In this document: positions 485-19,919 of the stretch, in pieces
Position numbering within the stretch: position 1 is the stretch's first letter
Layout: every line of letters begins with the position of its first letter
Assembly (NCBI GenBank): GCA_021773975.1
Contig: JAJFJN010000014.1
Span: forward strand, 1 to 64,000
DNA: 64,000 nucleotides
From: Gammaproteobacteria bacterium
Lineage (GTDB): Bacteria > Pseudomonadota > Gammaproteobacteria > Chromatiales > Chromatiaceae
Reading direction: 5' to 3'
The notes under the pieces: generated by a model
What the model saw: only the letters and a program-made list of their open reading frames with translations
The model's database searches: none
What the model was told of the DNA's origin: nothing
Program-made: the position numbers and the translations under genes

Positions 485-1456
485 ATGATAGATATGCCCA
501 TTCATAGAGCAATGCTCAGCGTTCTATTTGGAGTGCTGTTGGTAAGTAATCTCTCCGCATCCCAGACATATTGGTTGTCGGATATAGCACCCACCAAGGA
601 AGAGGCGAGGAAAATGAGATCCTCGCATGGTGGCATGGTCATAAGAGGCAAGCGGGGTTACTCCAAAAAGCTCTGGCTGCGAAAGGGAGAGAGTATTGCT
701 GATTCAACCTATGTTGAACAAAGTGAGATGTCTCTTCTTTTGGTCGATCCAAAAGCATCACAAAGTAAAATGGCCTTTAGTAATAAAGGGTATGCCGATA
801 TCACCTATAAGATGAAAAATGAGGGATATTACAACCTGTTCATGACTGACAGGCAGATTGACGGAGGCGTGCTGCAGGAGAGCGTACTTAAAAATGAGTC
901 GCTTAATCATAGCTGCAGAAATGGCCATGACCATGTTAAAGATATGGTGCCACCGCTCTATTTTGATGGAACCTCTTTTGACATTATTAGAGAGCGGCTC
1001 CCCAGAGAATCATTTCACCTGCGCATGGGCTCAGGCGACATTATCAGTTACAAGGTGATGCTCAATGGTAAACCGGTGAGCGGTGCTGCCGTGACCATGT
1101 CCACCCAAAAGGGCTGGGCCAAGACCCTAAAAACAGATTCAGAAGGCAGAGCTGCCTTTGAGATGATTCGTGACTACTACCCGCCATGGCATGAGTTTAA
1201 AAAGCGCAATATGGAGAGCTTTCTGATCATCGCTGAATATGAGAGTGATGAAAACGGTATGTATCAAGGAGAGCACTATGATGGCATTCATTACAAGGCA
1301 ACCGCCGCAGGCAACTATTACCCTTCAACCCGAGACTATAAGTCATATGCTTATGGACTATTGATTGGATTGATTGGACTAATGGCATCAGTATTCTTCA
1401 TCTATTTCCACAGAAAAAGACGTGCCAATCAGTATCAGGAGAAGCGTCTTGCGTAA
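485..1456 (+). CDS. Periplasmic DUF4198-like protein with C-terminal membrane anchor
   Basis: First gene of the reductase operon (323 aa). The ATG at 485 follows an AGGT at normal spacing; ATG 494 is an alternative. Residues 1-27 form a signal peptide. A hydrophobic segment at about 290-307, followed by a basic tail (HRKRRAN), makes a C-terminal anchor. The body resembles the DUF4198 group, with a beta-sandwich-like stretch near residues 185-225 (VSGAAVTMSTQKGW). His142, Cys144, His148 and His150 lie close together (NHSCRNGHDH) and could bind a metal. DUF4198 relatives are often linked to metal uptake; here the neighbours are redox proteins, so a sensing, cofactor or substrate-delivery role on the periplasmic side is possible. 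The exact function is unknown. It overlaps the next gene by eight bases, suggesting translational coupling. Confidence 0.65.
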   Translation: MIDMPIHRAMLSVLFGVLLVSNLSASQTYWLSDIAPTKEEARKMRSSHGGMVIRGKRGYSKKLWLRKGESIADSTYVEQSEMSLLLVDPKASQSKMAFSNKGYADITYKMKNEGYYNLFMTDRQIDGGVLQESVLKNESLNHSCRNGHDHVKDMVPPLYFDGTSFDIIRERLPRESFHLRMGSGDIISYKVMLNGKPVSGAAVTMSTQKGWAKTLKTDSEGRAAFEMIRDYYPPWHEFKKRNMESFLIIAEYESDENGMYQGEHYDGIHYKATAAGNYYPSTRDYKSYAYGLLIGLIGLMASVFFIYFHRKRRANQYQEKRLA

Positions 1457-2423
1457 TAAGATTAGTAATTATTTGAACAATGGTGATCTAAGGCGCTTTA
1501 GGTTTTGGCTCCAACTATCCCTGTTTATCCTCTTCGTCTATGGGGGCTATGCGGCTATAAATATAGGTGACAACCTGCCTACCTTCTCCTGCACATATGT
1601 TGATGGTAAACCAGGCACCTGTTTTCTGGTGCCGTTGCAACATCGGATGGTGACAACGCCTGAGAAGCTTTTTAGTTATGCAGGCATGGCGATACTCACT
1701 GGGCTTTTCTATTTTACTCTCTGGTTCTTGGTCTTCAACAAAGCCTGGTGTGGTTATGCCTGCCCCTTAGGAACCGTTCAAGACTGGATCACAGCACTGA
1801 GAAAAAAATTGGGCATGCAGTATGTCACCTATAGCTGGGGTCAATTCAAGGTGCTTAAAAAGATCAAGTACATTTTTCTTTTATTACTGATCTTTATTCC
1901 AATGGGCATTGGTTCAGGGATGTTTTCCCATGATATGGGGGTTCCGTTTTGTATGATTTGTCCTGCACGGACAATCCTCCCCATGTTTTCTGGTGACTTC
2001 TCTCAACTAACCATTGATTTCTCCTCCAAGACAAAAATGATTATGACATCCCTGGGGATGTTGATAACCGGTATTTTCCTGGTGGGTGCCTTTGTCAAAA
2101 AACGATTCTTCTGCTTCTTTTGTCCCATGAGCGCATTCCATTATCTGCTCTCAAAACCAGCGCTGCTCAAATTGAAAAAGGACGGTTCAAAGTGCACCAA
2201 GTGTGGTGACTGTTACAGCGTCTGTGATATGCAGATAAAAGAGATCGCCGATAATATTGATGATCGAAACATCCTCCAGGATGACTGCATCATGTGTTTT
2301 AAGTGTGTGGCGGCCTGCCCAGAAGAGGGGGCTTTAGAAGTCGATTTTATGGGGCAGCCTGTTTTTGAAGCAACCGTGCAGGGGTACATCAAGCGTATGG
2401 AAAAGGCCAATAAAAATGGGTAA
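1449..2423 (+). CDS. NapH-like membrane polyferredoxin (4Fe-4S)
   Basis: Membrane iron-sulfur protein (324 aa) of the NapH/NosR/CcoG-like group, which passes electrons between the quinone pool and soluble or periplasmic partners. It has several membrane segments, the first at about residues 20-36. Cysteine motifs are CGYACP near 101-106, CMICPAR near 168, CFFCPMS near 222, and two C-terminal ferredoxin motifs, CTKCGDCYSVC (249-259) and CIMCFKCVAACP (280-291). I chose TTG 1449 because AGGAGAA at 1437-1443 sits five bases upstream; the in-frame GTG 1422 has no good site. It overlaps the genes on both sides, so it belongs to the same operon. It is the most likely electron source for the cytoplasmic reductase that follows, though that is inference from position. 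Confidence 0.85.
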   Translation: MRNKISNYLNNGDLRRFRFWLQLSLFILFVYGGYAAINIGDNLPTFSCTYVDGKPGTCFLVPLQHRMVTTPEKLFSYAGMAILTGLFYFTLWFLVFNKAWCGYACPLGTVQDWITALRKKLGMQYVTYSWGQFKVLKKIKYIFLLLLIFIPMGIGSGMFSHDMGVPFCMICPARTILPMFSGDFSQLTIDFSSKTKMIMTSLGMLITGIFLVGAFVKKRFFCFFCPMSAFHYLLSKPALLKLKKDGSKCTKCGDCYSVCDMQIKEIADNIDDRNILQDDCIMCFKCVAACPEEGALEVDFMGQPVFEATVQGYIKRMEKANKNG

Positions 2424-3699
2424 TGAAATAGAGATAGAAGAGAAGAAGGTGCCTTTTAACCGTACCCCTCAGGCGATTGAAGCCGAAAGAATGTTGCGTC
2501 GCATCAAGGATGATTTTCAAGATAACCCAGCTGCGATGGATTATTTCTATGACCTCTATGAGCAGGTCTACTGCAAAGGCCAGTCCCTACATGAAAAAGA
2601 GAAGATTGTTGGCACCATGTGTGTTCAGGTGCCGGAAGAGCTGATCTATGCGGCCGGTGGTGTGCCGGTGCGACTGTGCAATGGTTTCTATACCGATGAT
2701 CAGGTGGGCGCGGAATTTATGCCTGCTAAATCCTGTTCTCTGGTTAAGGCCACGCTTGGAATGTTGGATAAGCGATCCACACTGCCCTTTGTGGATAAGA
2801 TAGAGAATATTATTCTGCCAGCAACCTGCGATCAAAAGCGTAAGGCAGGCAGCATGATTGGTGAGATGGGCTATGAGGTCTATAACATGGAGGTGCCTCC
2901 CGTCAAAGAGAGTGAAGAGGCTCGCCTCTACTGGCGGCGCTCTGTTCATAACTTTGCGGTATCACTGAAAGGAATTACAGGCAAAAAGATTACCAAGGCC
3001 AGCCTTAAAGAGGCGTTGGCAAAAGTGGCCGCAGCACAAAAAGCCTATAGAACACTGCATAATTTAAGAAAAGAGTCTCCATCCATCTTCCTTGGCAAAG
3101 ATGCATTTATGGTAACCAATGCCTATTTCTTCGATAAGATCGAGAATTGGACGGCGGCGGTAAATAAATTAAATGCTGAGCTTGAGCAGCGCATAGAGGA
3201 GAAGATTACAGCGGCACAACGTCGTGCGCCGCGCATACTCTTCACCGGCTCACCGGCTATCTTTCCTAATCTAAAACTGCCGGTGCTGACTGAAGAGTCA
3301 GGCGGTGTGATTGTGGCAGATGAGACCTGCTCATCCAACCGCATGCTCTATGACATGGTGGCGGTGGATGAATATAACACCGAGAACATGGTTGCCAGCA
3401 TTGCAGATAACTATCTGAAGCCCTGCACCTGCCCAATCTTTACCAAGAATGATGATCGGATACGCAAGCTGATCAATATGGCCAAGGATTTTGCGGTTGA
3501 TGGCGTGGTCTATCAATCCTTCTCAGGTTGCCAGGTCTATCAGATGGAACACAGCAGCATTGCTAAGGCGCTCAAGGCTGAGGGTGTCCCCATGCTGTTT
3601 GTAGAATCAGATTACAGCCCAGATGATATGGGTCAGCTCTCTACCCGAATAGAGGCATTTATTGAGTCACTGAAGGCCAAGCGGAGAAGAAAGCGATGA
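2416..3699 (+). CDS. Double-cubane-cluster-type reductase (2-hydroxyacyl-CoA dehydratase family)
   Basis: 427 aa from ATG 2416, which overlaps the stop of the polyferredoxin gene. The fold family is that of HgdB/BcrBC, 2-hydroxyacyl-CoA dehydratase and benzoyl-CoA reductase subunits. A single such protein paired with an activase, with length near 420 aa, fits the double-cubane cluster protein (DCCP) branch. In Carboxydothermus hydrogenoformans this branch carries an [8Fe-9S] cluster and reduces small molecules such as acetylene, azide and hydrazine. Cysteines occur at 53, 69, 88, 107, 138, 305, 337, 339 and 372, in contexts such as MCVQVPEE, KSCSL, ATCDQ, DETCSS, KPCTCP and SGCQ. No second dehydratase subunit and no CoA pathway genes are nearby, which argues against a true dehydratase. 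The physiological substrate is unknown. Confidence 0.8.
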   Translation: MGNEIEIEEKKVPFNRTPQAIEAERMLRRIKDDFQDNPAAMDYFYDLYEQVYCKGQSLHEKEKIVGTMCVQVPEELIYAAGGVPVRLCNGFYTDDQVGAEFMPAKSCSLVKATLGMLDKRSTLPFVDKIENIILPATCDQKRKAGSMIGEMGYEVYNMEVPPVKESEEARLYWRRSVHNFAVSLKGITGKKITKASLKEALAKVAAAQKAYRTLHNLRKESPSIFLGKDAFMVTNAYFFDKIENWTAAVNKLNAELEQRIEEKITAAQRRAPRILFTGSPAIFPNLKLPVLTEESGGVIVADETCSSNRMLYDMVAVDEYNTENMVASIADNYLKPCTCPIFTKNDDRIRKLINMAKDFAVDGVVYQSFSGCQVYQMEHSSIAKALKAEGVPMLFVESDYSPDDMGQLSTRIEAFIESLKAKRRRKR

Positions 3700-4505
3700 G
3701 CTGTTTTGCAGGTATTGATATCGGATCAACAGCAATCAAGATTGCATTGATCGATGAAGATAAAAACATCATCGCTACCAAGGTGACCTCAACCGGTAGC
3801 CATTTTCGAAAAAATTCTATCGAAGCCTTGCATGGACTTCTCTCAGAGAATGGGCTGGCTATTGATGATCTGGCCTATATGGTTTCGACTGGTTACGGCA
3901 GAAAGTTGTTAAAAGAGGCAGATGAATCAGTCAGTGAAATCACTGCCAATGCTATTGGTGCACTGGAGGCTGGGCGCAAATACGGTGAGATCAGAACCAT
4001 CATCAATATCGGTGGGCAGGATACCAAAGCGATACAGATCGATGACTCGGGTACGGTCACAAATTTTGCAATGAATGACAAGTGTGCGGCAGGTACCGGA
4101 AAGTTTCTGGATGTGACGGCGAGGAATCTGGAGATTGAACTTGAGGAGCTGGGTGACTATCACTTCAATCTCAAAACTGCGCCACTACCGATCAATAGCA
4201 CCTGTGTCGTATTTGCAGAATCAGAGATCATCGGCCTGCTGGCAGATGGGCATGGCAAAGAGGAGATTGTTGCTGGTATCCATTACTCCATAGCCAAGCG
4301 GACAATCCGACTGGCTAAACGTATAGGTCTGGAAGGGTTGGTTTACTTTGATGGCGGACCCGCACTGAATAAAGGGTTGGTTGCCAGCATGGAAGATGAG
4401 CTGGGACAGAAGCTGGTGATACCGGAGTTTCCACAGCTAACGACGGCGCTGGGAGCCTCGGTACTGGCTTGTGAAGCCTACCTGGATGAGATGGAAACAG
4501 CTTGA
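3696..4505 (+). CDS. ATP-dependent activase (HgdC/BcrAD-type ASKHA ATPase)
   Basis: 269 aa; its ATG overlaps the TGA of the reductase gene by four bases. This family uses ATP to push a low-potential electron into the partner reductase. Visible features are the phosphate-binding loop GIDIGSTAIK (6-15), the NIGGQDTKAI motif (104-113), and Cys130 (NDKCAAGTG) and Cys170 (NSTCVVFAE). In HgdC the equivalent cysteines hold one [4Fe-4S] cluster between the two monomers. A C-terminal GGPALNKG motif completes the ASKHA fold. The length is typical for HgdC-like activators. Direct overlap with the reductase makes the pairing very secure. The upstream electron donor is not proven but is probably a ferredoxin-type protein such as the neighbouring membrane polyferredoxin. 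Confidence 0.9.
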   Translation: MSCFAGIDIGSTAIKIALIDEDKNIIATKVTSTGSHFRKNSIEALHGLLSENGLAIDDLAYMVSTGYGRKLLKEADESVSEITANAIGALEAGRKYGEIRTIINIGGQDTKAIQIDDSGTVTNFAMNDKCAAGTGKFLDVTARNLEIELEELGDYHFNLKTAPLPINSTCVVFAESEIIGLLADGHGKEEIVAGIHYSIAKRTIRLAKRIGLEGLVYFDGGPALNKGLVASMEDELGQKLVIPEFPQLTTALGASVLACEAYLDEMETA

Positions 4506-4538
4506 TCTATAGCGTCCAACTTAAGACCGGTCTGCACC

Positions 4539-5225
4539 ATGCTTGAAATCGACCCAACAACAATGACCTTCACCCTGGCGATGGGTATGGGGCTTGCCTT
4601 TGGTCTGGGGCCTTGCAATATCTCGTGCCTGCCGTATCTTGGCCCCGTATTTCTTGCACGCGAAGGAGGGCTTCGTCACTCCTGGCGCACTATTGTCCCG
4701 TTCTCTATGGGACGATTGAGTGGCTACACCCTGCTTGGCCTATTTGCTGGCCTCACGGGACAAATAATAGATAACAGGCTGGATACCCCCTGGGTGCCTA
4801 TGGTTCTGGGTGGCGCCACAGTGCTTGTTGGTCTATCGCTACTCTTCTCAAGCAAACCGATGAATGGTTGTTCCTCAGCACCAGTAAAAAACAGATGGGT
4901 TGCTAAACTTCACCCTGGATTAAATATTAAGCGGTTCCTGCCAGACGGGCTTTTTTTTATGGGCTTTGGCATGGCTCTGAATCCCTGCGCCCCCCTGAGC
5001 AAGGTCATACTGGCCGCATCTGCGACTACCAGTGCTGTAGCTGGATTCTCTTTGGGGCTTGGTTTTGGCCTGGGGGCTATCCTTGTCCCTGCTTTAGTCT
5101 TTGGTGTTGGAATGGCCTATGTTGGAAACCAGCTCAGAGCACAGATGGCAGAATGGCGCACCACCTTAGAAAGAACCAGTGCGGTTATGCTGATCGTTAT
5201 GGGGTCGGGTGTCTTTATATTTTGA
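4539..5225 (+). CDS. CcdA/DsbD- or TauE/SafE-like membrane protein with paired cysteines
   Basis: 228 aa, about six membrane helices, starting 33 bases after the activase. It matches the group usually labelled sulfite exporter TauE/SafE (DsbD_2-type). Two Pro-Cys elements stand out: GPCNISCLPY in the first helix (Cys26, Cys30) and NPCAPLSK in a later helix (Cys150). These resemble the CcdA/DsbD core, where cysteines in two helices carry electrons across the membrane. Cys111 lies in the central loop. Within this operon an electron or thiol relay to the periplasmic side is more plausible than sulfite export, but export or metal transport cannot be excluded. The start has only a weak ribosome binding site (AAGACCGG). 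Confidence 0.7.
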   Translation: MLEIDPTTMTFTLAMGMGLAFGLGPCNISCLPYLGPVFLAREGGLRHSWRTIVPFSMGRLSGYTLLGLFAGLTGQIIDNRLDTPWVPMVLGGATVLVGLSLLFSSKPMNGCSSAPVKNRWVAKLHPGLNIKRFLPDGLFFMGFGMALNPCAPLSKVILAASATTSAVAGFSLGLGFGLGAILVPALVFGVGMAYVGNQLRAQMAEWRTTLERTSAVMLIVMGSGVFIF

Positions 5226-5424: not shown

Positions 5425-5811
5425 TCATCGTCTTGATCTTGTTGATCTTCGCACCTCAGCCCCTACGTGCTGGGCCGCATCATGCTCGTTTTTTGATCTC
5501 TGAGAGTATGCCCCACCTAATACCTCTGGGGTAGCACCGGCAGGCCACTCAACTTTGATGCTGTTAGGCAGATTGATGGTACAAATGGAATAATCAGAAG
5601 AGGCAAGTTGTACTTTCTGAAAAAGTGCAGGCAGTGGTGCAGCATCATCCAAGGTGCCCATCTTTATGAGCCGATGTTTCCAGTCATAAAGTGCTTTGAT
5701 CTTGAGTCCTTGTTGATCAGCATAGGTTTGCAGCGTCAGACCGGATTGCAACGCCGCAATAACATGCTTTTTCCAGCGCCGCTGGGTTTTGGTCAACTGC
5801 TTAGCATTCAT
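5425..5811 (-). pseudogene. tnpA: IS66 accessory protein TnpA, 3' end lost
   Basis: The first 97 or so residues read as an IS66 TnpA: a helix-turn-helix region (KKHVIAALQSGLTLQTYADQQGL, seen as residues 14-36) and the usual IKALYDWKHRL part. The C-terminal domain is cut at the conserved end (INLPNSIKVEWPAG followed by TPEVLGG). After this the reading frame continues into unrelated, Arg/Ser-rich sequence, which indicates a frameshift or deletion junction near 5515. In intact IS66 elements TnpA is required with TnpB and TnpC; neither is present, so this copy cannot move by itself. Confidence 0.65.
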
Positions 5812-7519: not shown

Positions 7520-7882
7520 CTAGTGCATCCGGCTCTTGCTGCTTTTATGTTGCTTGGACATACGCATGCCCTCGGAAAAAGCTTCATAACGGCCAAGCTG
7601 GTTTTCATCCAGAACAGTGCTGAGTTTTTTTACAGTCTCATCTTGTAGCGCTTTACGCTGCTCTGCCATTTTTTTGTAGAGTGCTTTCTTTGCCTCTTTT
7701 TGTTCCTGCATGATCTCTTCAACCTTTGCAACCTGATCCTTACGAAGATTGAGTACCTGAGTCATTTTCTCTGTATGTTGTTTCTGATATTTGGCTCTCT
7801 TCTCATCACTACCACTAGGTGGCATTGCCAGAACAGGTAGTGCCGATAGCAGTAACATGCACATGGTAATTTTTCTGATCAT
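7520..7882 (-). CDS. Spy/CpxP-like periplasmic stress protein
   Basis: 120 aa with a signal peptide (residues 1-19, ending VLAM) and a mainly helical, charged body typical of the LTXXQ/Spy-CpxP superfamily, for example MTQVLNLRKDQVAKVEEIM and LSTVLDENQLGRYEAF. These proteins act in the periplasm as chaperones or metal/stress sensors. It is the last gene after the RND pump (gap 52 bases) on the same strand, so it is probably co-transcribed with the adaptor and the pump. Several Spy-like proteins are found beside metal-efflux systems, which fits but does not prove a metal role for this pump. The Lys/Ser/His-rich C-terminus (KQHKSSKSRMH) is notable. Confidence 0.75.
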   Translation of the reverse strand: MIRKITMCMLLLSALPVLAMPPSGSDEKRAKYQKQHTEKMTQVLNLRKDQVAKVEEIMQEQKEAKKALYKKMAEQRKALQDETVKKLSTVLDENQLGRYEAFSEGMRMSKQHKSSKSRMH

Positions 7883-7934: not shown

Positions 7935-10900
7935 CTATGAATTTTCTGGGCTAGGTTGAAGGTTAGACCTCAAAGAGAGGATGTCTGCCAATATGCCATA
8001 GACTACAGGCACCAACAGTAGCACCAGCAGTGTGGCCACGGCCAATCCAAAAACGATGGTGATGGCCATAGGTAACAGGAATTGAGCCTGAATGGATGTC
8101 TCAAACATCAATGGGGTAAGCCCACCAATGGTAGTCAGTGAGGTGAGCAGCACGGCTCGCAGACGGTCACGTGCTGCGCCTGTTGCTGCCTCCCGCATGG
8201 ATTCACCAGCAGCCATCCGTTCATCTGCACGAGAGACCAGGATGATTGAATCATTAATGATAATTCCTGACAGCCCCAGCAGGCCTACCAAGCTAAGCAT
8301 AGTCAGGCTCTGCCCCATGATCAGGTGACCTACTACCATCCCGATTGCGCCAAAAGGGATGATAATCATGACGATCAGTGGGCGTGAATAGCCACTGAAT
8401 ACCCAGGCCAGAATGATATAGATCAGTGCCAATGCAATGAGCCAGCCGCGTTGGAGATCAGAAAAACCAGCCTGCTGCTCGGCCAGGCCACCGGCTACTT
8501 TTAGGGTTACGCCATGGCGTTGCACAATGGCTTCCAGCCCCATCTCTTCCAACTTGTCTTGCGCCTCCATCAGCGTCAGCACCTTGCTGTCCAGATCTGC
8601 ACCGACGGTAATATTGGTCTTACCATCCCGCCGCATAATCATTGAAAATGCGGACTTCTCATCCAGCTCGGCAATGTCGCGCAGGGGCACATAGGCTCCA
8701 TTGGGTGCGGCAATACGCATTTCACGCAAGGCCTGCATGCCAACTGTGCTGTTCTCGCGCCGAATGCGTATAACAACCTCTTCGGAGTTGCGTGCAAACC
8801 GGCGTACAATCTGCCCCTCCAGCGCTTGCTGTACCTGGCTGGTTACATCATCGATGGCAAAACCCAACATCCTTCCACGCTGGGTAAGGTGGATGGCTAC
8901 ATCACGCTTCCCCCAAGGGAGGTTGTCGTTGACAGACTGCACACCCGGTATGGTTGAGAGCAGGTCCTGAATCTCCAGGGCAGCGCTCTTCAAGCTGTAG
9001 GCTTCATCTCCTTGCAGATGAATCTCCAGATCCTGTGGTGCCCCACCGTGACGGCGTACACCGACAGAGAAGCGTTCCATCCCAGGGATAGATGGCAGCA
9101 TGCGTTTCCATTGCGCCATAATCTCACGGGTACGGACAGTCCGCTCCTCTGAAGATGTCAGTTGTACATCCAGCTGAGCCAGGTGGTCACCTGAAGAGAA
9201 GCCCAGCTTTCCCAACCAGGCAAAGGTGACATGAACCAGCGCATGCTCTTCACCCAACTTCTGTTCTGCTCGGTAGAGACTCGCTTCAATCAACTCTAAT
9301 GCCTTCAACGTCTCTTCACGTGAGGTGCCTGCCTGCATGGTAATGCCGGCAGAGATATACTCCGCCTCCGGTGAGGGAAAGAAATTGAAGCGCAGCTTTC
9401 CGCTCATTACCATGGAGGCGGCGAGCAGAAGCAGAGAGATAACCACCGCCAGCGTGGCGTAGCGCCAGCTAATGACAAATTCAACGATAGGGCCAAAGAT
9501 GTGGTCTCTGAAATGGTTGAACTTCTGATCAAAAAAACGGCGAAAACGGCTGGGACTCCCGTAGTGGGAAAGGGCGTGGCGCAGATGTGCCGGCAGGATA
9601 AAGAAACACTCAATAAGACTTGCAGCAAGCGCAGCAGTAACTACCAGTGGCAGAGCCTGCAGCATGTCACCCACACGGCCAGACATAAAGAAGGTGGGCA
9701 GAAAGGCGACAATGGTGGTCAGTGTGGCCGCCATCACAGGTCCCGACATGCGCAAGACTCCCTGTTCTGCCGCCTGTTCAATAGGTAGACCACCCTTGTG
9801 TAGCGTTGCAGTGTGTTCACCCACGACGATGGCATCGTCAACAATGATGCCAAGCGCCAGCATTAGCGCAAACAGGGAGAACATGTTGATGCTTTGACCT
9901 GTCATCCACATAACAGCAAAGGTTGCCATCAGCGCCACAGGTATGCCGAAGGCAACCCAGAAGGCAATGCGGGCACTGAGAAAGATAAACAGCACGACGA
10001 CGACAATGGCAAGCCCTTGCAGGCCATTCTTGAATAGTAGATTTATACGTTCCTGTAGATAGTTGGCACGCACATCAAATAGCTCAACCTTGAGATCGGG
10101 TGGCAGGCGCTTGCTGACATGCTCGATATAGCTATGCAGGATGCGGTTGGTCTTCAGGGTATCGGCTGCGGGTGTCCGCTGGATCTCCAGCCGGATAGCG
10201 GGCTCACCCCGATGAAGACCACGAACCTGGTCTGGATCAAAGATATCCTCCACCTCTGCTACGTGATGAAGCGCCAAATGCTCACCGCTCTTGCCGGTGC
10301 GCAGGACAATCTTACTGATCTCATCTGTGGTATCAGCACGCCCGGCTCCGTGGACAGATCGATCCAATCCGCCGCGCAGATTACCCGCTGGGCGATCCCG
10401 GGTTTCGCGTTTGATGGCTGAGGCAACATCATCCATGGTCAGGTGATGGCGAGCCAGCCTACGCTCTGGAACGGTTACACGGATCTCTTCATCACGTGTT
10501 CCGGTCATCAGCACCCGATCGATACCGGCATCCAACAGGCCATCACGGATGCGCACGGCATGGCCTTTTAGCTCACCCTCTGAATAGGGTCCAGTGATCA
10601 AGATCTTGGCTACGCGTTCAAACCCCCGCACTGCATGAACCTCTGGGCGTTCTGCACCCTCCGGCAGGGTAGTGACACTATCAACTGCCTTTTGTACCTC
10701 TATTGTCAGTTGATCCACATCCATGCCGCGCCGAAACTGAGCGGCCATGTAGGCGCTTCCTTCACGGGCTTGCCCCATGAGGTTGTCAACGCCATCCAGA
10801 TAGCGCAAAGCGGGCTCAAGATTGCGGATGACCGCCTTATCCATGTCAGAAGCACTTGCCCCAGGCCAGTCAACACGCACTGAAACACGCGGGTTTTCCC

Positions 10901-11057
10901 GTGTTGGCAACAGCTGGGTATTGAGCATATCCAGCGCGATATAGCCGCCAATCAACAAGATGACCATCAGCAGATTGGCTGCCGTGCGATGCTGAGTAAA
11001 AAAACGGATAGGTGCCGAAAGGGCTGGAAAACGAGGAGTCTCTCCTGTCTCACTCAT
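7935..11057 (-). CDS. RND efflux pump inner-membrane subunit (AcrB/MexF-like)
   Basis: 1040 aa, full length for the family. Two halves each carry a large periplasmic loop and a block of membrane helices. The fourth helix has the paired acidic residues of the proton relay (GIIVDDAIVVGEH), and the second half ends with a typical RND helix bundle (LGLSGIIINDSIILVSRADE). The pump takes substrates from the periplasm or inner membrane and exports them through an outer-membrane channel, driven by protons. Its ATG overlaps the adaptor stop by four bases (ATGA), so the two are translationally coupled. No outer-membrane factor gene is present; a TolC-like protein encoded elsewhere is expected. The substrate cannot be told from sequence. 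The relay motif fits drug/lipid-type (HAE) pumps at least as well as heavy-metal CusA-type pumps. Confidence 0.93.
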   Translation of the reverse strand: MSETGETPRFPALSAPIRFFTQHRTAANLLMVILLIGGYIALDMLNTQLLPTRENPRVSVRVDWPGASASDMDKAVIRNLEPALRYLDGVDNLMGQAREGSAYMAAQFRRGMDVDQLTIEVQKAVDSVTTLPEGAERPEVHAVRGFERVAKILITGPYSEGELKGHAVRIRDGLLDAGIDRVLMTGTRDEEIRVTVPERRLARHHLTMDDVASAIKRETRDRPAGNLRGGLDRSVHGAGRADTTDEISKIVLRTGKSGEHLALHHVAEVEDIFDPDQVRGLHRGEPAIRLEIQRTPAADTLKTNRILHSYIEHVSKRLPPDLKVELFDVRANYLQERINLLFKNGLQGLAIVVVVLFIFLSARIAFWVAFGIPVALMATFAVMWMTGQSINMFSLFALMLALGIIVDDAIVVGEHTATLHKGGLPIEQAAEQGVLRMSGPVMAATLTTIVAFLPTFFMSGRVGDMLQALPLVVTAALAASLIECFFILPAHLRHALSHYGSPSRFRRFFDQKFNHFRDHIFGPIVEFVISWRYATLAVVISLLLLAASMVMSGKLRFNFFPSPEAEYISAGITMQAGTSREETLKALELIEASLYRAEQKLGEEHALVHVTFAWLGKLGFSSGDHLAQLDVQLTSSEERTVRTREIMAQWKRMLPSIPGMERFSVGVRRHGGAPQDLEIHLQGDEAYSLKSAALEIQDLLSTIPGVQSVNDNLPWGKRDVAIHLTQRGRMLGFAIDDVTSQVQQALEGQIVRRFARNSEEVVIRIRRENSTVGMQALREMRIAAPNGAYVPLRDIAELDEKSAFSMIMRRDGKTNITVGADLDSKVLTLMEAQDKLEEMGLEAIVQRHGVTLKVAGGLAEQQAGFSDLQRGWLIALALIYIILAWVFSGYSRPLIVMIIIPFGAIGMVVGHLIMGQSLTMLSLVGLLGLSGIIINDSIILVSRADERMAAGESMREAATGAARDRLRAVLLTSLTTIGGLTPLMFETSIQAQFLLPMAITIVFGLAVATLLVLLLVPVVYGILADILSLRSNLQPSPENS

Positions 11058-12445
11058 TGTGCTATCACCTTCACTTTCATACCGGGCTTGGCATTCGGCA
11101 GGTGGTTGGCAAGTACCTGCTCTCCCTCGTTGAGGCCGCTGGAGATCAGCACCTCACCTTTTTCCCAGGTCAGTGGTTCTACCTGGCGAGGAACCAGCTT
11201 GTCATCCTTGATTAGAAAAACCTGATCCTGATCATAGAGAGCACTTTCTGGTACTCGCGCTATGTGATCAATGCTGTTGCCGGAAAGCATCACATCTACA
11301 AAGGAACCGATGGGCAGCTGATTCTTTAGCACTTCATCTTCTCCTAATCCGGCATAGAGGATGATGGAACCACTCTCTTTGGTAACCTCTGCAGCTACCC
11401 GTTTCACCTTGCCATTGAAAATCCGCTGTGTTCGACCGGAGCGCCAGGTGATATGTACAGGCAGGCCAGAAATGACTTCGCCGGAAGCTAACAGATCACC
11501 GTATTGATCTTCTGATAGGGTAAAACGCACCTCAAAATCTCCACCTGAGGCCAAGGTTGCCAGCTTGTTTGATGAGGTAATGTATTGGCCAGTTTCAGCG
11601 TTGACTGACAAGACATGGGCATCAAAGGGTGCAACAAAACGACTATCTGTTAATGCCCGGTTTGCCCTCTGTAGTACCCATTGCTGGCGTTTTTCTGCGG
11701 CGTTCTGTTGTTGTAGTCGAGCACGATTGATCTTGATATTACTTTGCCGTTGCTGCAATGCAAATTCTCGCTGGGAAACGAGTACAGTGGCCCCATCCAG
11801 TATTTTTTGCGATGCAGAGTTGCTCTTAAATAGCCTCTGCATACGTTTTAGCTCATTTTGTGCTGGCTTTAGCTGACGATGTGCCTGCTCCAGACCATGC
11901 TCTTCAAGCATTATCTGAGCACCTATCTCCTTCTGTTTGGCCTGTATCTCTGAAAGGGTGGCCTGTGCCTCCTCCAGCGCTGCACGGTAGGGAAATTCAT
12001 CAACCGCAGTCAACAGATCTCTTTTCTTAATTATCGACCCTTCACGTAACTCTGGGCTGACATGAACAAGCCGCCCTGGAACGGGAATATGCACTGCTAC
12101 CCTATGGCTGGTGACAATCTCTCCATAAAGGTTCCATTTTGGTTGGTATGCCGCCAGGTGGATGGTGTGTGCCTTTACCGCCGGCTGTTTATTGCGCCCT
12201 TTGGTCTTTGGTGGGCCAGCACGCCCGTAGCGTGGCCCCGCGGGTCCCTTGAGTCTTGAAGAGGCTGCTACTGATGTTGGCTTGCTGCCATGTGATTTCC
12301 CTGTGCTCCCTGCTGTGCTCATGATGCCCTGATATCCAGCTATGCCAAGGATGAGAAAGAGTATAGGCAGGATTGCCACGAGATATTTTTGTGTGCGTGG
12401 GCGCTTGTGCTTGTTATGAGTTTCTTTTGAAACAGGATCCTGCAT
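11054..12445 (-). CDS. RND periplasmic adaptor (membrane fusion protein)
   Basis: 463 aa. An N-terminal membrane anchor (about residues 21-43, KYLVAILPILFLILGIAGY) is preceded by a basic cytoplasmic tail. It is followed by a Lys/Gly-rich linker, a lipoyl half-motif, a coiled-coil hairpin (about 160-245) and the second lipoyl half and beta-barrel (FVAPFDAHVLSVNAETGQYI is the typical second half). The C-terminal membrane-proximal domain ends VLANHLPNAKPGMKVKV. This is the HlyD/AcrA-type adaptor of the pump encoded immediately downstream, with which it overlaps by four bases. The long basic linker before the lipoyl domain is unusual but not diagnostic. A terminator separates it from the receptor pseudogene upstream, so it must have its own promoter. 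Confidence 0.92.
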   Translation of the reverse strand: MQDPVSKETHNKHKRPRTQKYLVAILPILFLILGIAGYQGIMSTAGSTGKSHGSKPTSVAASSRLKGPAGPRYGRAGPPKTKGRNKQPAVKAHTIHLAAYQPKWNLYGEIVTSHRVAVHIPVPGRLVHVSPELREGSIIKKRDLLTAVDEFPYRAALEEAQATLSEIQAKQKEIGAQIMLEEHGLEQAHRQLKPAQNELKRMQRLFKSNSASQKILDGATVLVSQREFALQQRQSNIKINRARLQQQNAAEKRQQWVLQRANRALTDSRFVAPFDAHVLSVNAETGQYITSSNKLATLASGGDFEVRFTLSEDQYGDLLASGEVISGLPVHITWRSGRTQRIFNGKVKRVAAEVTKESGSIILYAGLGEDEVLKNQLPIGSFVDVMLSGNSIDHIARVPESALYDQDQVFLIKDDKLVPRQVEPLTWEKGEVLISSGLNEGEQVLANHLPNAKPGMKVKVIAQ

Positions 12446-12568: not shown

Positions 12569-14507
12569 TTACAGGAAGCTGTACTTGATGCCAATATTGA
12601 CGGAACGAGGTTCACCGGGTGAGTAGCTTCTGCCACTGCGGCTGCTATAGGAGACACCTTCTCCATATTTCTCATCTGTCAGATTGCGCATCTGTCCCCA
12701 TACTGACCACACACCGGTGTCATAGTTGGCCTTAAGGTGGAACAGATCAGGACGGTGAATAGGTTACCCTTGCGTTGACGTGATGCAGCGGTGATGAACT
12801 AAGATCATTGCCGCTGTAGTTGGTGCCAGCATCAACAAAATCGGTGTATTCGTGATCCGCATAGGTGTAGGTGGCATCAAATCGCAGATTATCCAGTGGT
12901 GCAAAATGGAATGCGGCTTCCAGGCCCTTTCCTCGTACTTCGCCGGCATTGACATAGACTCGGTTAGCGCCGCCACGATCTACTCCGACCACCATATCTT
13001 CGATCTCGGTGTGATAGAGGGTCATGTCATAACCAAGCATTCCATCGGTAGTGGCACCACGTAAGCCGATGGAGTAGTTCTCTGCAGTTTCCGGGTCGAG
13101 GTCTGGATCGGCGTTATAGCTGTTCCATTTTCCTCTGGCAAAATAAGCCGTGCTGGCGAACAGTCTTGACCGGCTTGGTGCCATGAAACCCTCACCATAG
13201 CCAAACCACAAACTATTGTTTTCGTTGAGCGCTAAGCTAATCCCCGCCTTCTTGCTTACATTGGTATATTTTGACTCTAGCGTGCCTTTGGTTCCAAATT
13301 TGTCTTCGCCTTTATAATCAATATGATCGTAGCGTGCGCCCAGTGTTACCTCAGCCCAATCAACGGGTGAGAACTGAACCTGTGTGAAGGGAGATACGAC
13401 TTCAGCCAAAAGATCCCACTCTTTTTCTACTGCACCCGGAGTTGTACTGACATCCGATGTCCATGCCTTGCTTGTTTCGTTTACGTCACTGTGTTGTATG
13501 TCGGCACCGACTATCAACTTTGACATCATAGGATCAAACTTCCAATGTGACTCGAGTGCTAGGTTATGATCCATATATTCATCATCGACAAAACCACTCT
13601 TATAGGAGAGTGCGGTTGGCCCATCAGTTTCAGTTTTTCGCGCTGAATAGGAGATTTTGGTGCTTAGTTTATCGCTGAACTGATGCTCATAAATCCCTGA
13701 TAGCGTGGTGAACTGAGTATCTTCATAGGCATCGTAGACATCTGCTTGCCTCCAGCTTTCATCATACTCAGCTTCTGAAATTGATCCTGGTTGCTGAATA
13801 CGCTTGTCCTGGTATTCGCCTCGCAGTGTCAGTTTGGTTTTTTGGGAAAATGTCCATACACCCTTGGCACTAAAGGCCTTCTCTTCTCTTTTGGTACGAT
13901 CACGCCAGCCATCCACTGTTAGGAAATTAGCATCAGCCTTATAGCCAAAAATGCCCTGTGTATCCCCAATGGAAGCCCCTGTCCTGTAACGTTCCCAAGA
14001 CCCGGCTTCGGCCCAGACATTAATTTCTTTCTCTGGTGGTGCTTTAGTGATGATATTGATGACACCACCAATTGCTTAACTGCCAAAGAGTGCAGATGCT
14101 GGTCCCTTGGTGACCTCAACTCGCTCGATATCCCACGAATTGACCTCATTGATTGATCGGTTAAAGCCCTTACCAAAGGGACGCATCATCACTCCATCCC
14201 GCAGGTTGACTGTGTAGTTTCTACCGCCGAACGCCCATCTGAGGTTTCGCCCCATACTGTTGCCAGGTATCCGTGACAAAAGCTCCTTATTTGCATCGAT
14301 AAACTTTACTCTGTCAATTTCATCCTGACCGATTACGGAGATGGCATTGGGGGTGTTCAATAACCGTTCCTCTGAACGTGAACCTGACACGACAATTGTA
14401 TCGAGGGAGCTGGCACTCTCTTTGGCCAGAACGGGGGATGTTGCAGCCGCAATAGCAGATATTGCCAGGATGGATGTTCTGGATTTCCAGTTTTTTATCG
14501 GTTTCAC
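12569..14507 (-). pseudogene. TonB-dependent receptor, broken by a stop codon and a frameshift
   Basis: The intact gene would encode about 645 residues. From ATG 14507 there is a signal peptide (ending SPVLAKES), a TonB-box-like DTIVVSGSR and a plug domain to VEVTKGPASALFGS. An in-frame TAA then interrupts at 14076-14078, where the family has NAIGGVINI; the frame after it still reads AIGGVINIITK. The barrel then continues openly to about 12756, where one extra base near 12748-12756 shifts the frame. The true C-terminus (DLFHLKANYD to SVNIGIKYSFL) lies in another frame and ends at the TAA at 12569-12571. The sequence between the lesions is well preserved, so inactivation is recent. The substrate is unknown. 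A sequencing error could explain one lesion but hardly both. Confidence 0.88.
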
Positions 14508-14895: not shown

Positions 14896-16092
14896 TTAAT
14901 CAAGAAAAGCTAACCACTGTTTTGCACTGTTAGCTGTCTTGCTATATTTTTCGGCTTGTTTAAATGCGGTACGGGCTTTATCCAGTGAATGAGTCTCGTG
15001 CCGTACAATGCCCAGTAGCATCCAGGCCTGCCCGGTGTTGGCGCTATCCAGCTTTCCATCGCGGATAATCGTATTGAGTGTTTTACCAGCCTCTTCCCAG
15101 CGTTGTGATTCCATGTAGAGTTGTGCGAGGCGCAAACCCAGTTGTGGGTTCCGCAATAGGGCCTTGGCTTTTTCCAGGGCTGCCACGGCTTTATCGGTCT
15201 CCCGTGCCAGCAGCCAGGCATTGGCGGCATGTTCCCAATTCTTTTCTGTCTTATTGATATCTCCACGCTTCATCTCGTTCTCAATTATGGTTGCGGCTTT
15301 ATAGGGGGCATTGAGATGCAGATAGAGCTGGGCAAGGTTGAGTAGTTCCTGTTCTGTTTTAATATGACCACGCAGATAGGCTAGCTCCATAGTGGTAAGC
15401 GCATCACTGTATTTATCTTCAGTTAACTGAATGCCTGCGAGTTGCCGCCAGTAGTTTGGGCGGTCTGGAAAATGTTGCAACATGGTGTGCAGAAGGGTGG
15501 TGCATTGTTCGTAATGTTTTAGTTCGCTATAGGCTCCCAATAGGCTTTGATACCAGCTCTCCTTTGGCTCTTCAGTCATCGTGATGGCTTGGTTCAATGG
15601 TGCAATGGCTTGTTTAAAATGCCCCAACTGTAGATGGGCAGTTGCTAGCATGATGTAGGCTTCTGCTTGCGGACTATCTACTTGGGTAAACCAGGTGTTT
15701 AGTAAATTGATGGCTTCAGTGAAGCCTTCTGTTGCCATATAAAGCCGTATCAGATCGTAGTAAATCTGTTGCTGGGGTTCAGGTGGGAGTGCATTAAGTT
15801 CAACACTGCGTTTAAGGGGCGGTATGGCTGAACTGTAATCCTCTTGTGAAATATAGGCATGAGAAAGTGTTTGCAGCACGATGGCTTGCTCATAGGGTTT
15901 TTTCTCTAGTTTGGCTAGCAGTGTTTTTAGATTGTTGATTGCCTTGGTTACGCTGGCTGTGCCAAAGGACGCTTGTGCGGCCATCAGTACTTTATAGGTC
16001 TGCTGGGAGAGTGCTTTTTTTTCAGCAGCATCGACTATGGTGACAATGCCCCACAATAATGCCATTAATAATCCTACGGCAGGTTTGTTCAT
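14896..16092 (-). CDS. TPR-repeat periplasmic protein of the TonB2-type system
   Basis: 398 aa with a signal peptide (residues 1-22, ending IVDAAEK) followed by about eight to ten tetratricopeptide repeats, for example SHAYISQEDYSSAIPPLKRS and LGHFKQAIAPLNQAI. It is the last gene of the operon; its ATG overlaps the tonB stop by one base (16092). In Vibrio TonB2 systems a TPR protein is encoded in the same position after tonB2, so synteny supports the same role. It is probably a periplasmic partner of TonB or ExbD that helps energised transport, though the mechanism in this family is not well defined. Confidence 0.8.
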   Translation of the reverse strand: MNKPAVGLLMALLWGIVTIVDAAEKKALSQQTYKVLMAAQASFGTASVTKAINNLKTLLAKLEKKPYEQAIVLQTLSHAYISQEDYSSAIPPLKRSVELNALPPEPQQQIYYDLIRLYMATEGFTEAINLLNTWFTQVDSPQAEAYIMLATAHLQLGHFKQAIAPLNQAITMTEEPKESWYQSLLGAYSELKHYEQCTTLLHTMLQHFPDRPNYWRQLAGIQLTEDKYSDALTTMELAYLRGHIKTEQELLNLAQLYLHLNAPYKAATIIENEMKRGDINKTEKNWEHAANAWLLARETDKAVAALEKAKALLRNPQLGLRLAQLYMESQRWEEAGKTLNTIIRDGKLDSANTGQAWMLLGIVRHETHSLDKARTAFKQAEKYSKTANSAKQWLAFLD

Positions 16093-16742
16093 TAGCGTGA
16101 TTTATTGAGTGTAAAATTTATGATCTGATCTGCTCGCGTGGCTACGGGCTTGCCATCACTGATTCTAGGTTTAAAGCGCCATTTTAGGATGGCTTGCAGT
16201 GCGGCTCTGTCAAAGATGCCTTTGGGTTTGGCATCGACTACCACTGCATCCTGCACGGTTCCTTGTGCGGTGATGATGAATGAAACCTTCACCCAGCCTT
16301 CGATCTTTTTGCGTTCTGCCCGATAGGGGTAGCGTGGTGGTATGCGGGAGAGCACCATAAATTCACGATCGGGTGATCCTTGTCGTACTGAACCAATATA
16401 AGGCCCATCAAAATGCATGGCTGATTGGCTCAACTCTGGCATGGCCATAGCAATATCAGGCGCTCTTACAGTGGGCTTGTTTATGGCGAGTTCTAGTTCA
16501 GGTATCTGAGGCGGCGGTGACTCAGGGGGCGGAGGCTCTTCAGGCTTTTCGCGCTGCTTGAGGCGGGTTTCGGATGGCTGCTTTAGGCGTACGAACTCCA
16601 TCACAGGGCGCTGAGCTTTCATTACTATTCTACTATCATCCTGAACCACCATTAGCTGCATGAGCCATAGCAGTGCCAGGGCGATGATGATACCCCCTAT
16701 ACCTGAAAAGATAAGCCTAAAAAGGTAGGAAATGGAATGCAT
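16092..16742 (-). CDS. tonB: TonB energy-transducing protein
   Basis: 216 aa. An N-terminal membrane helix (about 9-30) anchors it to the inner membrane. A Pro-rich spacer (KPEEPPPPESPPPQIPELE, about 67-85) spans the periplasm. The C-terminal TonB domain (about 130-216) has the family signature RIPPRYPYRAERKKIEGWV and the closing WRFKPRISDGKPV. TonB links ExbB/ExbD proton flow to outer-membrane receptors. It overlaps exbD by one base at 16742. The size is that of short TonB2-type proteins. The most obvious client is the receptor at the head of the operon; the broken receptor would have been another. Confidence 0.93.
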   Translation of the reverse strand: MHSISYLFRLIFSGIGGIIIALALLWLMQLMVVQDDSRIVMKAQRPVMEFVRLKQPSETRLKQREKPEEPPPPESPPPQIPELELAINKPTVRAPDIAMAMPELSQSAMHFDGPYIGSVRQGSPDREFMVLSRIPPRYPYRAERKKIEGWVKVSFIITAQGTVQDAVVVDAKPKGIFDRAALQAILKWRFKPRISDGKPVATRADQIINFTLNKSR

Positions 16743-17149
16743 TACTGGGCTTCAGCTGCTATGGCAACGTTGGTGATGCCGGCGAGTCGCACTTGATCCA
16801 TCACCCGTACCAGCGGGCCGATTTGGGCATTTTTGTCCCCTTGTATGACTACCGCACTCTCGGGGAACTCTGCTCGAAGCCGCTCGATATTGGCGCGTAC
16901 GGCGCGTATATCTACGGCTCGGCTATCGATCCAGATCTCACCGTTGGGGCGTATGGCGATTAGGATATTGGCGGACTCCTGCTGCTGAGCTGTATTGGCG
17001 TTGGGGCGATTGATCTCTACTCCTGATTCTTTGACAAAGGAGGTCGTCACTACGAAGAAGATCAGCATAATGAAGACCACATCCAGCATCGGAGTCAGGT
17101 TGACCTCGGACTCGGCACTGCTGTTATTGTGTGTACGATGTCGGCGCAT
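16742..17149 (-). CDS. exbD: ExbD proton channel subunit
   Basis: 135 aa: short cytoplasmic tail, one membrane helix (VNLTPMLDVVFIMLIFFVV, about 16-34) carrying the essential proton-handling Asp in PMLD, and a periplasmic ExbD/TolR domain (about 45-130). It works with ExbB to convert proton motive force into TonB movement. The start lies 18 bases after the exbB stop. The order exbB-exbD-tonB matches the Vibrio TonB2 locus. ExbD and TolR are hard to tell apart from sequence; the tonB neighbour decides for ExbD. Confidence 0.94.
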   Translation of the reverse strand: MRRHRTHNNSSAESEVNLTPMLDVVFIMLIFFVVTTSFVKESGVEINRPNANTAQQQESANILIAIRPNGEIWIDSRAVDIRAVRANIERLRAEFPESAVVIQGDKNAQIGPLVRVMDQVRLAGITNVAIAAEAQ

Positions 17150-17167
17150 TACTGTTCCTTTATCCAG

Positions 17168-17683
17168 CTAAATAAGTACGAGGTGGTGTGTAAGTTTTTC
17201 CACCCGGCGTTCTAGCTTTCGTTGTAGGGTGGCGTTGAAATAGAGTCCAGGCAGTGCCACTATCATGCCGGCCATGGTGGGTATGATGGCTTGATGAATG
17301 CCAGATGCCATGGCGCGCGCATTGCCCGTACCCAGTATGGCCATCACATCAAATACCCCCATCATGCCCGTGACCGTGCCAAGCAGCCCTAGCATTGGGC
17401 AGAGGGCGATTAGTATTTTGATGAGTAACATACCTCGGTTTAGGCTGACCTTGGTTTCAGAGATCATTGCCTCGCGAATCTGTACAGCACACCATGAGCT
17501 TTGGTCAGAGCGATTTTTCCATTGACTGACCAAGCAGGCCATCTTGTGTGGAAAATCGAGTTGAAAATACCAGTAGCGCTCAATGATGATTGCACCAAGG
17601 ATGAAAGCGGTACCTCCGATCGGCCATAGTACCGGGCCACCGGTTTCAAGAAACCGCAGCATGCCATCCAGCTGCTCATACAT
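17168..17683 (-). CDS. exbB: ExbB proton channel subunit
   Basis: 171 aa from ATG 17683, which overlaps the end of the TtpC-like gene by eight bases; an upstream in-frame start at 17707 would overlap more and adds no family sequence. Three membrane helices are visible, at about residues 14-34, 80-105 (LIALCPMLGLLGTVTGMMGV) and 125-150 (MAGMIVALPGLYFN). The MotA/TolQ/ExbB signature lies in the second of these. It forms the proton channel with ExbD. This short form is the ExbB2 type that always accompanies TtpC in Vibrio-like TonB2 systems. The second, larger MotA/TolQ/ExbB-type protein upstream is TtpC. Confidence 0.93.
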   Translation of the reverse strand: MYEQLDGMLRFLETGGPVLWPIGGTAFILGAIIIERYWYFQLDFPHKMACLVSQWKNRSDQSSWCAVQIREAMISETKVSLNRGMLLIKILIALCPMLGLLGTVTGMMGVFDVMAILGTGNARAMASGIHQAIIPTMAGMIVALPGLYFNATLQRKLERRVEKLTHHLVLI

Positions 17684-19810: not shown

Positions 19811-19919
19811 TTTGATTACTCCTGGCAACCCAGCTGAGCTGTCTTGGGTTGATTTGATGCTGATGAGCGTATTAGTTTTAACAGGCTGAACTGCTGGATA
19901 GCTGCGTATTAAATAAACC

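Follow-up and report, generated by a model that had tools for sequence, protein, structure and literature searches.

Double-cubane cluster proteins (DCCPs) can reduce small molecules in vitro. BzdNO, an enzyme of the double-cubane type, requires potentials below -600 mV for the second and the third electron; coupling to one ATP for each electron might, in theory, bring a ferredoxin electron down to about -1 V (excerpts of PMC11971306). Reductive metal release beside a TonB receptor is of an already known kind, represented by PepSY loci such as hiuABC (PMC13001220). Proteins of the DUF4198 family are common beside PepSY-like proteins, some of them with TonB genes, and extraction of siderophore iron by reduction has been proposed for DUF4198/PepSY loci (excerpts of PMC8238504). 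Here we analyse a five-gene operon at positions 485-5225 of a 64,000-nt stretch of DNA (the window; contig JAJFJN010000014.1 of assembly GCA_021773975.1) from a gammaproteobacterium of the family Chromatiaceae. The operon joins a DCCP-type reductase to a membrane polyferredoxin, and its relatives commonly lie beside TonB receptor genes. The five genes almost certainly form a shared system, and TonB-dependent uptake of a metal complex is its probable setting.

The operon consists of five plus-strand open reading frames (ORFs) in the order PERI, NAPH, DCC, ACT and DSBD (Table 1), which encode an anchored periplasmic protein, a NapH-like polyferredoxin, the reductase, its activase and a CcdA-like membrane protein, respectively. 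Consecutive overlaps of 35, 8 and 4 nt connect the first four genes, and a 33-nt gap precedes DSBD. The preliminary description, made from the letters alone, had called this an overlapping five-gene operon; the five genes are real and four of them overlap, while the fifth is set off. The window begins at base 1 of its contig, which limits the upstream view to 484 bases. The operon is not a chance arrangement, because its gene order recurs in two phyla.

One scan of genome contigs found 46 related loci (loci and genomes used in comparisons are labelled L and G with a number). Forty carry Campylobacterota titles (Sulfurimonas, Sulfurovum, Sulfuricurvum, Arcobacteraceae and others), and the remaining six comprise four gammaproteobacterial loci near the window's (one titled Polarisedimenticolaceae), one Petrimonas and one 'bacterium'. 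Counting for each feature only the loci with enough flank, NAPH lies directly upstream of DCC in 45/45, PERI lies within 3.5 kb of DCC in 39/40 (the PERI of L028 is further upstream), and ACT lies directly downstream of DCC in 41/44. Among the 28 loci with at least 6 kb on both sides, DSBD is present in 26 and some TonB receptor in 25, along with ExbB (13/28), TonB (13/28) and a resistance-nodulation-division (RND) gene (7/28). One common full order in Campylobacterota is receptor, (ExbB, ExbD), DSBD, PERI, NAPH, DCC, ACT, (RND), TonB; alternative orders place DSBD last. A 396-kb record of Sulfurovum mangrovi, deposited as a plasmid, carries the locus as well. In L035, on the contig titled Petrimonas, a Campylobacterota-like copy is 51% identical to the window's DCC and has no ACT directly downstream; it reflects either mis-binning or transfer.

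Genome surveys bear out the proposed co-occurrence of the families. In Campylobacterota, a reductase at least 59% identical to the L020 protein occurs in 17 of 298 genomes, other longer matches being at most 35% identical, and the PERI profile at E <1e-60 selects the same 17 genomes (Fisher p 5e-28). In Gammaproteobacteria, a reductase at least 58% identical and a PERI match at E <1e-70 occur in the same 5 of 369 genomes, the window's included (p 2e-11). The cut-offs were placed at the gap seen in each match list, and the genomes are not independent of one another. Below them lie weak PERI matches, with a best E between 5e-8 and 5e-4 in 9 additional Campylobacterota genomes and between 4e-12 and 5e-4 in 10 additional ones of Gammaproteobacteria, together with distant HGD-D proteins in 45 and 10 more genomes, respectively. 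As a control, the 13 distant DCCPs of Campylobacterota for which loci were returned were viewed with about 1.5 kb of flank: 12 of these loci contain ACT, and NAPH is missing from all of them. Of 17 loci of the close reductase, every one has NAPH and 14 have ACT. The three without ACT (L058, L059 and L063) each represent the second reductase copy of a genome that has two, and in two of those genomes the other copy has its own ACT (L015; L157). Within the window's genus the reductase is present in four of six genomes, its own included, and it has no match in 28 genomes of other genera of the family. This patchy spread fits a horizontal gain; gene loss and incomplete genomes would be alternatives.

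The reductase belongs to the double-cubane branch by sequence. It matches PF06050 (HGD-D) with 324.7 bits and passes the double-cubane equivalog NF040772 of NCBIfam by a narrow margin (358.9 bits, cut-off 350), and three relatives from the same genus score 359-361 bits on that model. Its best solved relatives are the DCCP structures PDB 7yyl and 6eno (E about 1e-68), whose DCCP and activase we take to be Carboxydothermus proteins, and the six presumed cluster cysteines, among nine cysteines in total as first counted, align with those of the DCCP structures. The window's genome, 96.5% complete, contains a single HGD-D match and yields no second subunit, which upholds the earlier placement as a single-subunit reductase of the DCCP branch. 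We therefore reject a 2-hydroxyacyl-CoA dehydratase of the HadBC/HgdAB kind, which needs two HGD-D subunits. A class I benzoyl-CoA reductase is rejected as well, with 122.5 against 453.8 bits for the best model, bzdN; dehydratase and benzoyl-CoA reductase models all score far below their cut-offs on DCC. Thus, neither outcome named in the preliminary description as contrary to it, a grouping with two-subunit dehydratases or rare co-occurrence of the families, was seen, because the HGD-D protein is single and the families co-occur.

In a tree of 39 reductases, 22 NapH-linked proteins fall on one side of a branch with support 99/99, apart from 10 NapH-less Campylobacterota DCCPs and E. coli YjiM, and six rows resembling 2-hydroxyacyl-CoA dehydratases or benzoyl-CoA reductases (HAD/BCR-like) are distant. 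The rows were thinned by hand from 64 collected (L091_156 and L098_2618 were dropped as other subunits), the reductases of G419 and G542 are outside the tree, and a long-branch warning applies to YjiM and L098. In a cysteine comparison covering 62 of the 64 rows, Cys69, 107, 138, 305, 339 and 372, the presumed cluster ligands of the window's protein, are kept in 45/45 clade rows and 11/11 DCCP/YjiM rows; in the HAD/BCR-like rows Cys69 and Cys339 are missing in 6/6 and Cys305 in 5/6. Cys53 and Cys337, each near a presumed cluster cysteine (16 and 2 residues away), are invariant in the NapH-linked clade (45/45) and occur in 0/11 DCCP/YjiM rows. DCC thus shares with DCCPs, NF040772 members and the YjiM-YjiL pair the single-subunit HGD-D protein, the six conserved cysteines and the adjacent activase, and differs from DCCP/YjiM in its own clade, its two additional invariant cysteines and its adjoining membrane polyferredoxin. 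With HAD/BCR-like enzymes it shares the superfamily and an activase, but it lacks a second subunit, does not reach their models and is separate in the tree. DCC is predicted to carry an [Fe8S9] cluster and to reduce small molecules in an ATP-dependent manner. In L083 (G309, Campylobacterota), two DCCP genes of the distant type lie in tandem with no NapH beside them.

The other cytoplasmic and membrane partners are recognisable to different degrees. ACT matches PF01869 (178.8 bits) and PDB activators (best E 1e-60) and passes TIGR00241 (235.3 bits, cut-off 125.4), so its earlier assignment as an ATP-dependent activase stands. NAPH contains Fer4_5 and Fer4_10 domains and shares the Fer4_5 motifs and a C-terminal 2[4Fe-4S] domain with NapH/NosR/CcoG-type polyferredoxins, among which we count CcoG as a presumed relative; it scores 83.6 bits on the NapH model TIGR02163, far under the cut-off of 213.05, and is NapH-like only. 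Hydropathy indicates four hydrophobic regions, and hydropathy and charge together would place Cys57/Cys67/His74 and Cys177/Cys180 on the periplasmic side and two further CxnCP motifs and eight ferredoxin cysteines on the cytoplasmic side. An AlphaFold2 model of NAPH is too poor to use (predicted local distance difference test score, pLDDT, 59). DSBD matches PF13386 DsbD_2 (78.3 bits, cut-off 24.9), and its Cys26, Cys30, Cys111 and Cys150 are kept in 35/35 sequences.

The periplasmic protein appears, from a structural model, to be DUF4198-like by fold and probably binds metal. PERI has an N-terminal signal, beta domains and, by hydropathy, a C-terminal transmembrane helix, in agreement with the anchored periplasmic partner proposed earlier; its resemblance to metal binders had been overlooked. 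The AlphaFold2 model of residues 24-323 (pLDDT 86.4) matches Zcp (PDB 9mhi-9mhn) with Z 18.1 and a root-mean-square deviation of 2.8 over 203 residues, and the nickel-bound IsDUF4198 (PDB 9gcb) with Z 14.8 over 188 residues; the next unrelated row reaches 8.5. Sequence identity is 15% and 13%, respectively, and PERI differs from both in its C-terminal membrane anchor and in having no N-terminal His brace apparent by eye. The Zcp structures were solved with zinc, copper and cobalt. The family is diverse, with 13 positions conserved at 85% or more in 46 rows. Among 47 PERI proteins, the window's included, 21 are long forms with an extra N-terminal polyferredoxin, many of them with Met/His-rich linkers by eye. 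Judged by length and sequence, 6/21 long forms have a NosL-like segment and 15/21 lack it; Pfam confirms NosL for L015 only (PF05573 E 2e-16; PDB NosL E 3e-5).

Described DUF4198 proteins have a related setting. The Ideonella protein binds nickel with a Kd of 18 nM, and DUF4198 genes adjoin those of TonB receptors and NikR-type regulators (excerpts of PMC12537917); in Alteromonas, DUF4198/DUF2271 pairs adjoin only iron-responsive receptors (PMC7190382). In G229, a Campylobacterota genome, one stretch (L153, 3059-10848) forms an iron locus: PepSY_TM and FeoB lie between two DUF4198 genes, and a TonB receptor follows. The two DUF4198 proteins are distant PERI relatives, one matching DUF4198 over the cut-off and one just under it. 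This locus and ours have in common PERI relatives, a TonB receptor and a type of inner-membrane reductase; in G229, however, PepSY replaces the polyferredoxin, and there is no close DCC, only a 34% copy elsewhere in the genome.

The recurrent TonB receptor extends the system beyond the five genes, a frame that holds as an operon but had passed over the outer-membrane receptor, TonB/ExbBD and, in some loci, RND. The receptor type of the Sulfurimonas locus, which we call TBDR1, occurs at 38% identity or more in 21 of 22 DCC genomes; in G419 it is on a different contig from DCC. Two other gammaproteobacteria (G460 and G670) have, next to the five genes, a receptor that shares about 50% identity with TBDR1. 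Across the 298 Campylobacterota genomes, TBDR1 at E <1e-60 is found in 24, comprising all 17 with DCC and 7 of the 281 without it. Its nearest solved relatives are YncD and the pyrroloquinoline quinone (PQQ) transporter PqqU. The receptor beside the window's operon is of another type (28% identical to TBDR1 of L015 over 218 residues), and it is 75 and 84% identical to the operon-adjacent receptors of the sister genomes L008 and L009.

Loci without the reductase separate the polyferredoxin from DCC. All seven DCC-less TBDR1 loci of Campylobacterota carry a membrane polyferredoxin: three (G106, G295 and G278) have receptor, PERI-like, NAPH-like and DSBD-like genes, and in four the receptor is accompanied by a polyferredoxin of 475-489 residues, with a match to the N-terminal region of long PERIs. 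Of the latter type, G205 and G342 also have ExbBD, RND and TonB, and G354 has TonB. In gammaproteobacteria, DCC-less receptor/PERI/NAPH/DSBD loci are L151, L152 and L165, the last in G419, whose DCC locus sits on another contig, and L150 has PERI, NAPH, DSBD and TonB. The polyferredoxin therefore seems to have a periplasm-directed job independent of the reductase, because DCC-less sister loci keep receptor and polyferredoxin. In the NAPH tree, seven DCC-less proteins (L150-L152, L154, L159, L162 and L165) and 26 DCC-linked proteins are separated with support 100/100, as expected if DCC-linked NAPHs have adapted to DCC and ACT. The DCC-less NAPHs of L151 and L152 keep the iron-sulfur cysteines, Cys57, Cys67, His74, Cys177 and Cys180; 34 positions near-invariant in 49 DCC-linked NAPHs are different in both, and 23 of these are on the inferred cytoplasmic side. 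DCC and ACT thus look like an add-on accompanied by a changed cytoplasmic face of NAPH. As separate observations on DCC-less loci, a carbonic anhydrase gene precedes the receptor in L160 (9074-9820; PF00194, 160 bits) and, by eye, a similar one does in L163 (6620-7366), while in L154 (G278) a second, different polyferredoxin (9551-10923) and a thioredoxin-like protein, recognised by eye, lie directly upstream of the receptor.

Five loci (L020, L023, L028, L039 and L048) have two PERI-NAPH modules and, in the stretch covered, one DCC and one ACT; a single reductase genome-wide is known for L020 (G059), and the other four were judged on the locus stretch. Of the extra NAPHs, those of L020, L028, L039 and L048 fall among the DCC-linked ones in the NAPH tree, and that of L023 is outside that tree. 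Because one DCC serves two PERI-NAPH modules, this arrangement favours DCC as a shared electron source rather than a substrate-specific enzyme. G057, G314 and G348 keep two DCCs, which makes the argument less than absolute.

The explanation that we favour, tentatively and at somewhat short of an even chance, is a TonB-linked uptake locus with ATP-boosted periplasmic reduction of an imported metal chelate. Specifically, a receptor driven by TonB-ExbBD would import a metal bound tightly in a complex, such as a ferric or cupric chelate, to the periplasm, where PERI, anchored in the inner membrane, would bind the metal or its complex. ACT would use ATP to drive an electron into DCC, and the double-cubane cluster of DCC would pass very low-potential electrons to the cytoplasmic ferredoxin domain of NAPH; NAPH would carry them across the membrane to the PERI-held complex, and DSBD would supply thiol electrons or move metal. 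An outward flow from ACT and DCC through NAPH comes close to an even call without quite reaching it. Ferric catecholates lie near -750 mV; a literature search for a ferric siderophore or enterobactin potential near 750 mV found nothing. The low potential would argue for a ferric chelate as substrate, while the Met/His-rich linkers and NosL-like segments hint at a soft metal such as copper in part of the PERI family. That ATP, through a double-cubane enzyme, makes the system a super-reductant pump into the periplasm, reducing complexes beyond the reach of electrons at the level of NADH or quinol, is possible, although we would sooner doubt than assert it. In common with hiuABC/FoxB-type loci, ours would pair a TonB receptor with an inner-membrane protein for which reduction of the imported complex on the periplasmic side is proposed (PMC13001220). 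Here, in contrast, none of the five operon proteins matches PepSY, the role of reductase would fall to a polyferredoxin that receives its electrons from an ATP-driven enzyme, and no Fur box was seen in the scan described below. In the literature searched, mostly by title, we found neither a polyferredoxin replacing PepSY nor an ATP-driven double-cubane enzyme in a TonB locus; searches combining double-cubane with TonB-dependent, NosL with TonB-dependent, NapH and CcdA, and Sulfurimonas with 2-hydroxyglutaryl-CoA dehydratase returned nothing.

Several observations weigh against this explanation. A scan of 33 upstream regions for a Fur box gave one 15/19 match (L038), using an E. coli-type consensus from which Campylobacterota boxes may differ, and three Fur patterns occur in 0/29 loci. 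Known metal-regulator motifs are absent beyond a weak excess of a NikR-like pattern (8/29 against 2.7 expected, the highest of 40 shuffle sets reaching 6, with 19 patterns tried), and the commonest new palindrome is found in 5/29 loci, where shuffles reach 3 to 5. All family matches of PERI are below threshold, the best being DUF4198 (PF10670) with 25 against 34 bits. The Met/His stretches and the NosL domain of one sublineage hint at copper, which needs no very low potential. Three of the 28 full-flank loci (L011, L022 and L033) have no TonB receptor, and the window's genome is the sole one of the 22 DCC genomes without TBDR1, its own receptor being broken. No inner-membrane metal importer was recognised in the operon, unless it is DSBD, or among the partly scanned neighbours. 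Furthermore, the trees leave polarity unfixed, so that the DCC-less loci might have lost DCC, and the substrate of DCC could be cytoplasmic.

Two alternatives place the end of the electron path in the cytoplasm. The preliminary description had electrons pass from quinones through the polyferredoxin to the reductase, so that quinol electrons would reach ACT and DCC from NAPH and DCC would be a terminal reductase of small molecules. NAPH does have a ferredoxin domain and is strictly linked to DCC, and activases of this type normally take electrons from ferredoxin-like donors. The potential of menaquinol, however, is much too high for it to supply such an enzyme unless energy is put in, and the proposed direction found no support: polyferredoxins of the NAPH type occur in sister TonB loci without DCC, and the periplasmic-side Cys57, Cys67, Cys177, Cys180 and His74 are kept in the DCC-less L151 and L152. 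We regard this inward flow as distinctly unlikely. It is also unlikely, to a slightly lesser extent, that DCC acts in the cytoplasm on the very ligand or cofactor that is imported, reducing for example a corrinoid, a tetrapyrrole, a quinone or an isonitrile chelator, with NAPH and DSBD only serving import or donor supply. Transport of an organic cofactor by PqqU, a relative of TBDR1, and the in vitro reductions by DCCPs cited above would suit such a role; yet no inner-membrane ligand importer was recognised, by eye, among the recurrent neighbour families, and in five loci one DCC stands for two receptor/PERI modules.

A system for maturation or repair of a periplasmic copper enzyme, such as nitrous oxide reductase, would account for a NosR-like polyferredoxin, NosL and a CcdA-like protein in one place, and the NosL domain in the long PERI of L015 and the similar segments in six of the 21 long forms point that way. 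The 15 long forms without the segment do not, we know of no TonB receptor that is part of nos clusters, and a clade II nosZ model, searched in eight DCC genomes (clade I was not searched), passes its cut-off in four and has no match in two; the reading as a whole is improbable, and nitrous oxide reductase maturation as the sole role is disfavoured by that search. That the genes are neighbours by history only, with no shared pathway, is hardly credible: gene order does vary around the core, and what we take to be mobile-element-like ORFs lie beside the window's copy and L008, but at our cut-offs none of 667 genomes from two phyla has PERI without DCC or DCC without PERI, the genes overlap, and NAPH splits by the presence of DCC. 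Sulfur activation was also considered as the substrate reaction, and no tie to the locus was found. In a Sulfurovum indicum transcriptome TonB receptors are induced on elemental sulfur, and the terms ferredoxin, 4Fe-4S, NapH and dehydratase are absent from the text (PMC10045233).

The neighbouring genes of the window include further candidates (Table 1). Between the operon and the broken receptor the window has, like L009, an RND permease with its HlyD-like partner. RND genes also occur near some Campylobacterota operons, only 22-25% identical to the window's pump; because of this low identity and of the count of 7/28 full-flank loci, the pump stays a candidate and not a firm part. A small Spy/CpxP-like protein is encoded beside it at 7520-7882, its LTXXQ match below the cut-off. 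The broken receptor is either a pseudogene or an assembly error. Directly 3' of the operon, an ORF at 5425-5811 gives only a weak Pfam match to DUF6581 and to us resembles an IS66-type accessory protein; in L008, a transposase-like ORF, judged by eye, precedes the operon. On the minus strand, 14896-19828 holds an apparent TonB system by eye (a TPR-like protein, TonB, ExbD, two ExbB-like proteins and one further protein). Past it, up to 23929, come two proteins whose matches fall short of the Pfam cut-offs, one thioredoxin-like and the other BNR-repeat-like and carrying a CxCC motif, and then an intact TonB receptor; the stretch 14896-23929 is possibly a second uptake locus. An Rfam scan of the window gave no match at gathering scores.

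Table 1. Genes of the operon and nearby candidates, in window coordinates
Feature	Position	Strand	Remarks
PERI, membrane-anchored periplasmic protein, putative DUF4198/Zcp-like fold	485-1456	+	323 aa
NAPH, NapH-like membrane polyferredoxin	1422-2423	+	333 aa, GTG start
DCC, double-cubane-type reductase, single subunit	2416-3699	+	427 aa, ATG 2416
ACT, ATP-dependent activase, BadF/BadG/BcrA/BcrD family	3696-4505	+	269 aa
DSBD, DsbD_2/CcdA-like membrane protein	4539-5225	+	228 aa
RND permease, neighbour, possible part of the system	7935-11057	-	22-25% identical to Campylobacterota RND
RND membrane-fusion-like partner (HlyD_3), neighbour	11054-12445	-	L009 arranged alike
TonB-dependent receptor, broken by in-frame stop and frameshift	12572-14507	-	intact relative in L008

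The clade of DCC is defined and lies in a conserved uptake locus, which provides a testable context for a DCCP: metal limitation, a receptor and a membrane partner. If the locus works as we favour, it would add an ATP-coupled step to metal acquisition on the periplasmic side, and the super-reductant pump, if true, would be, to our knowledge, the first physiological role for a DCCP. If electrons run outwards, the system would offer a new route to very low periplasmic potentials and may open wider metal sources in sulfidic habitats.

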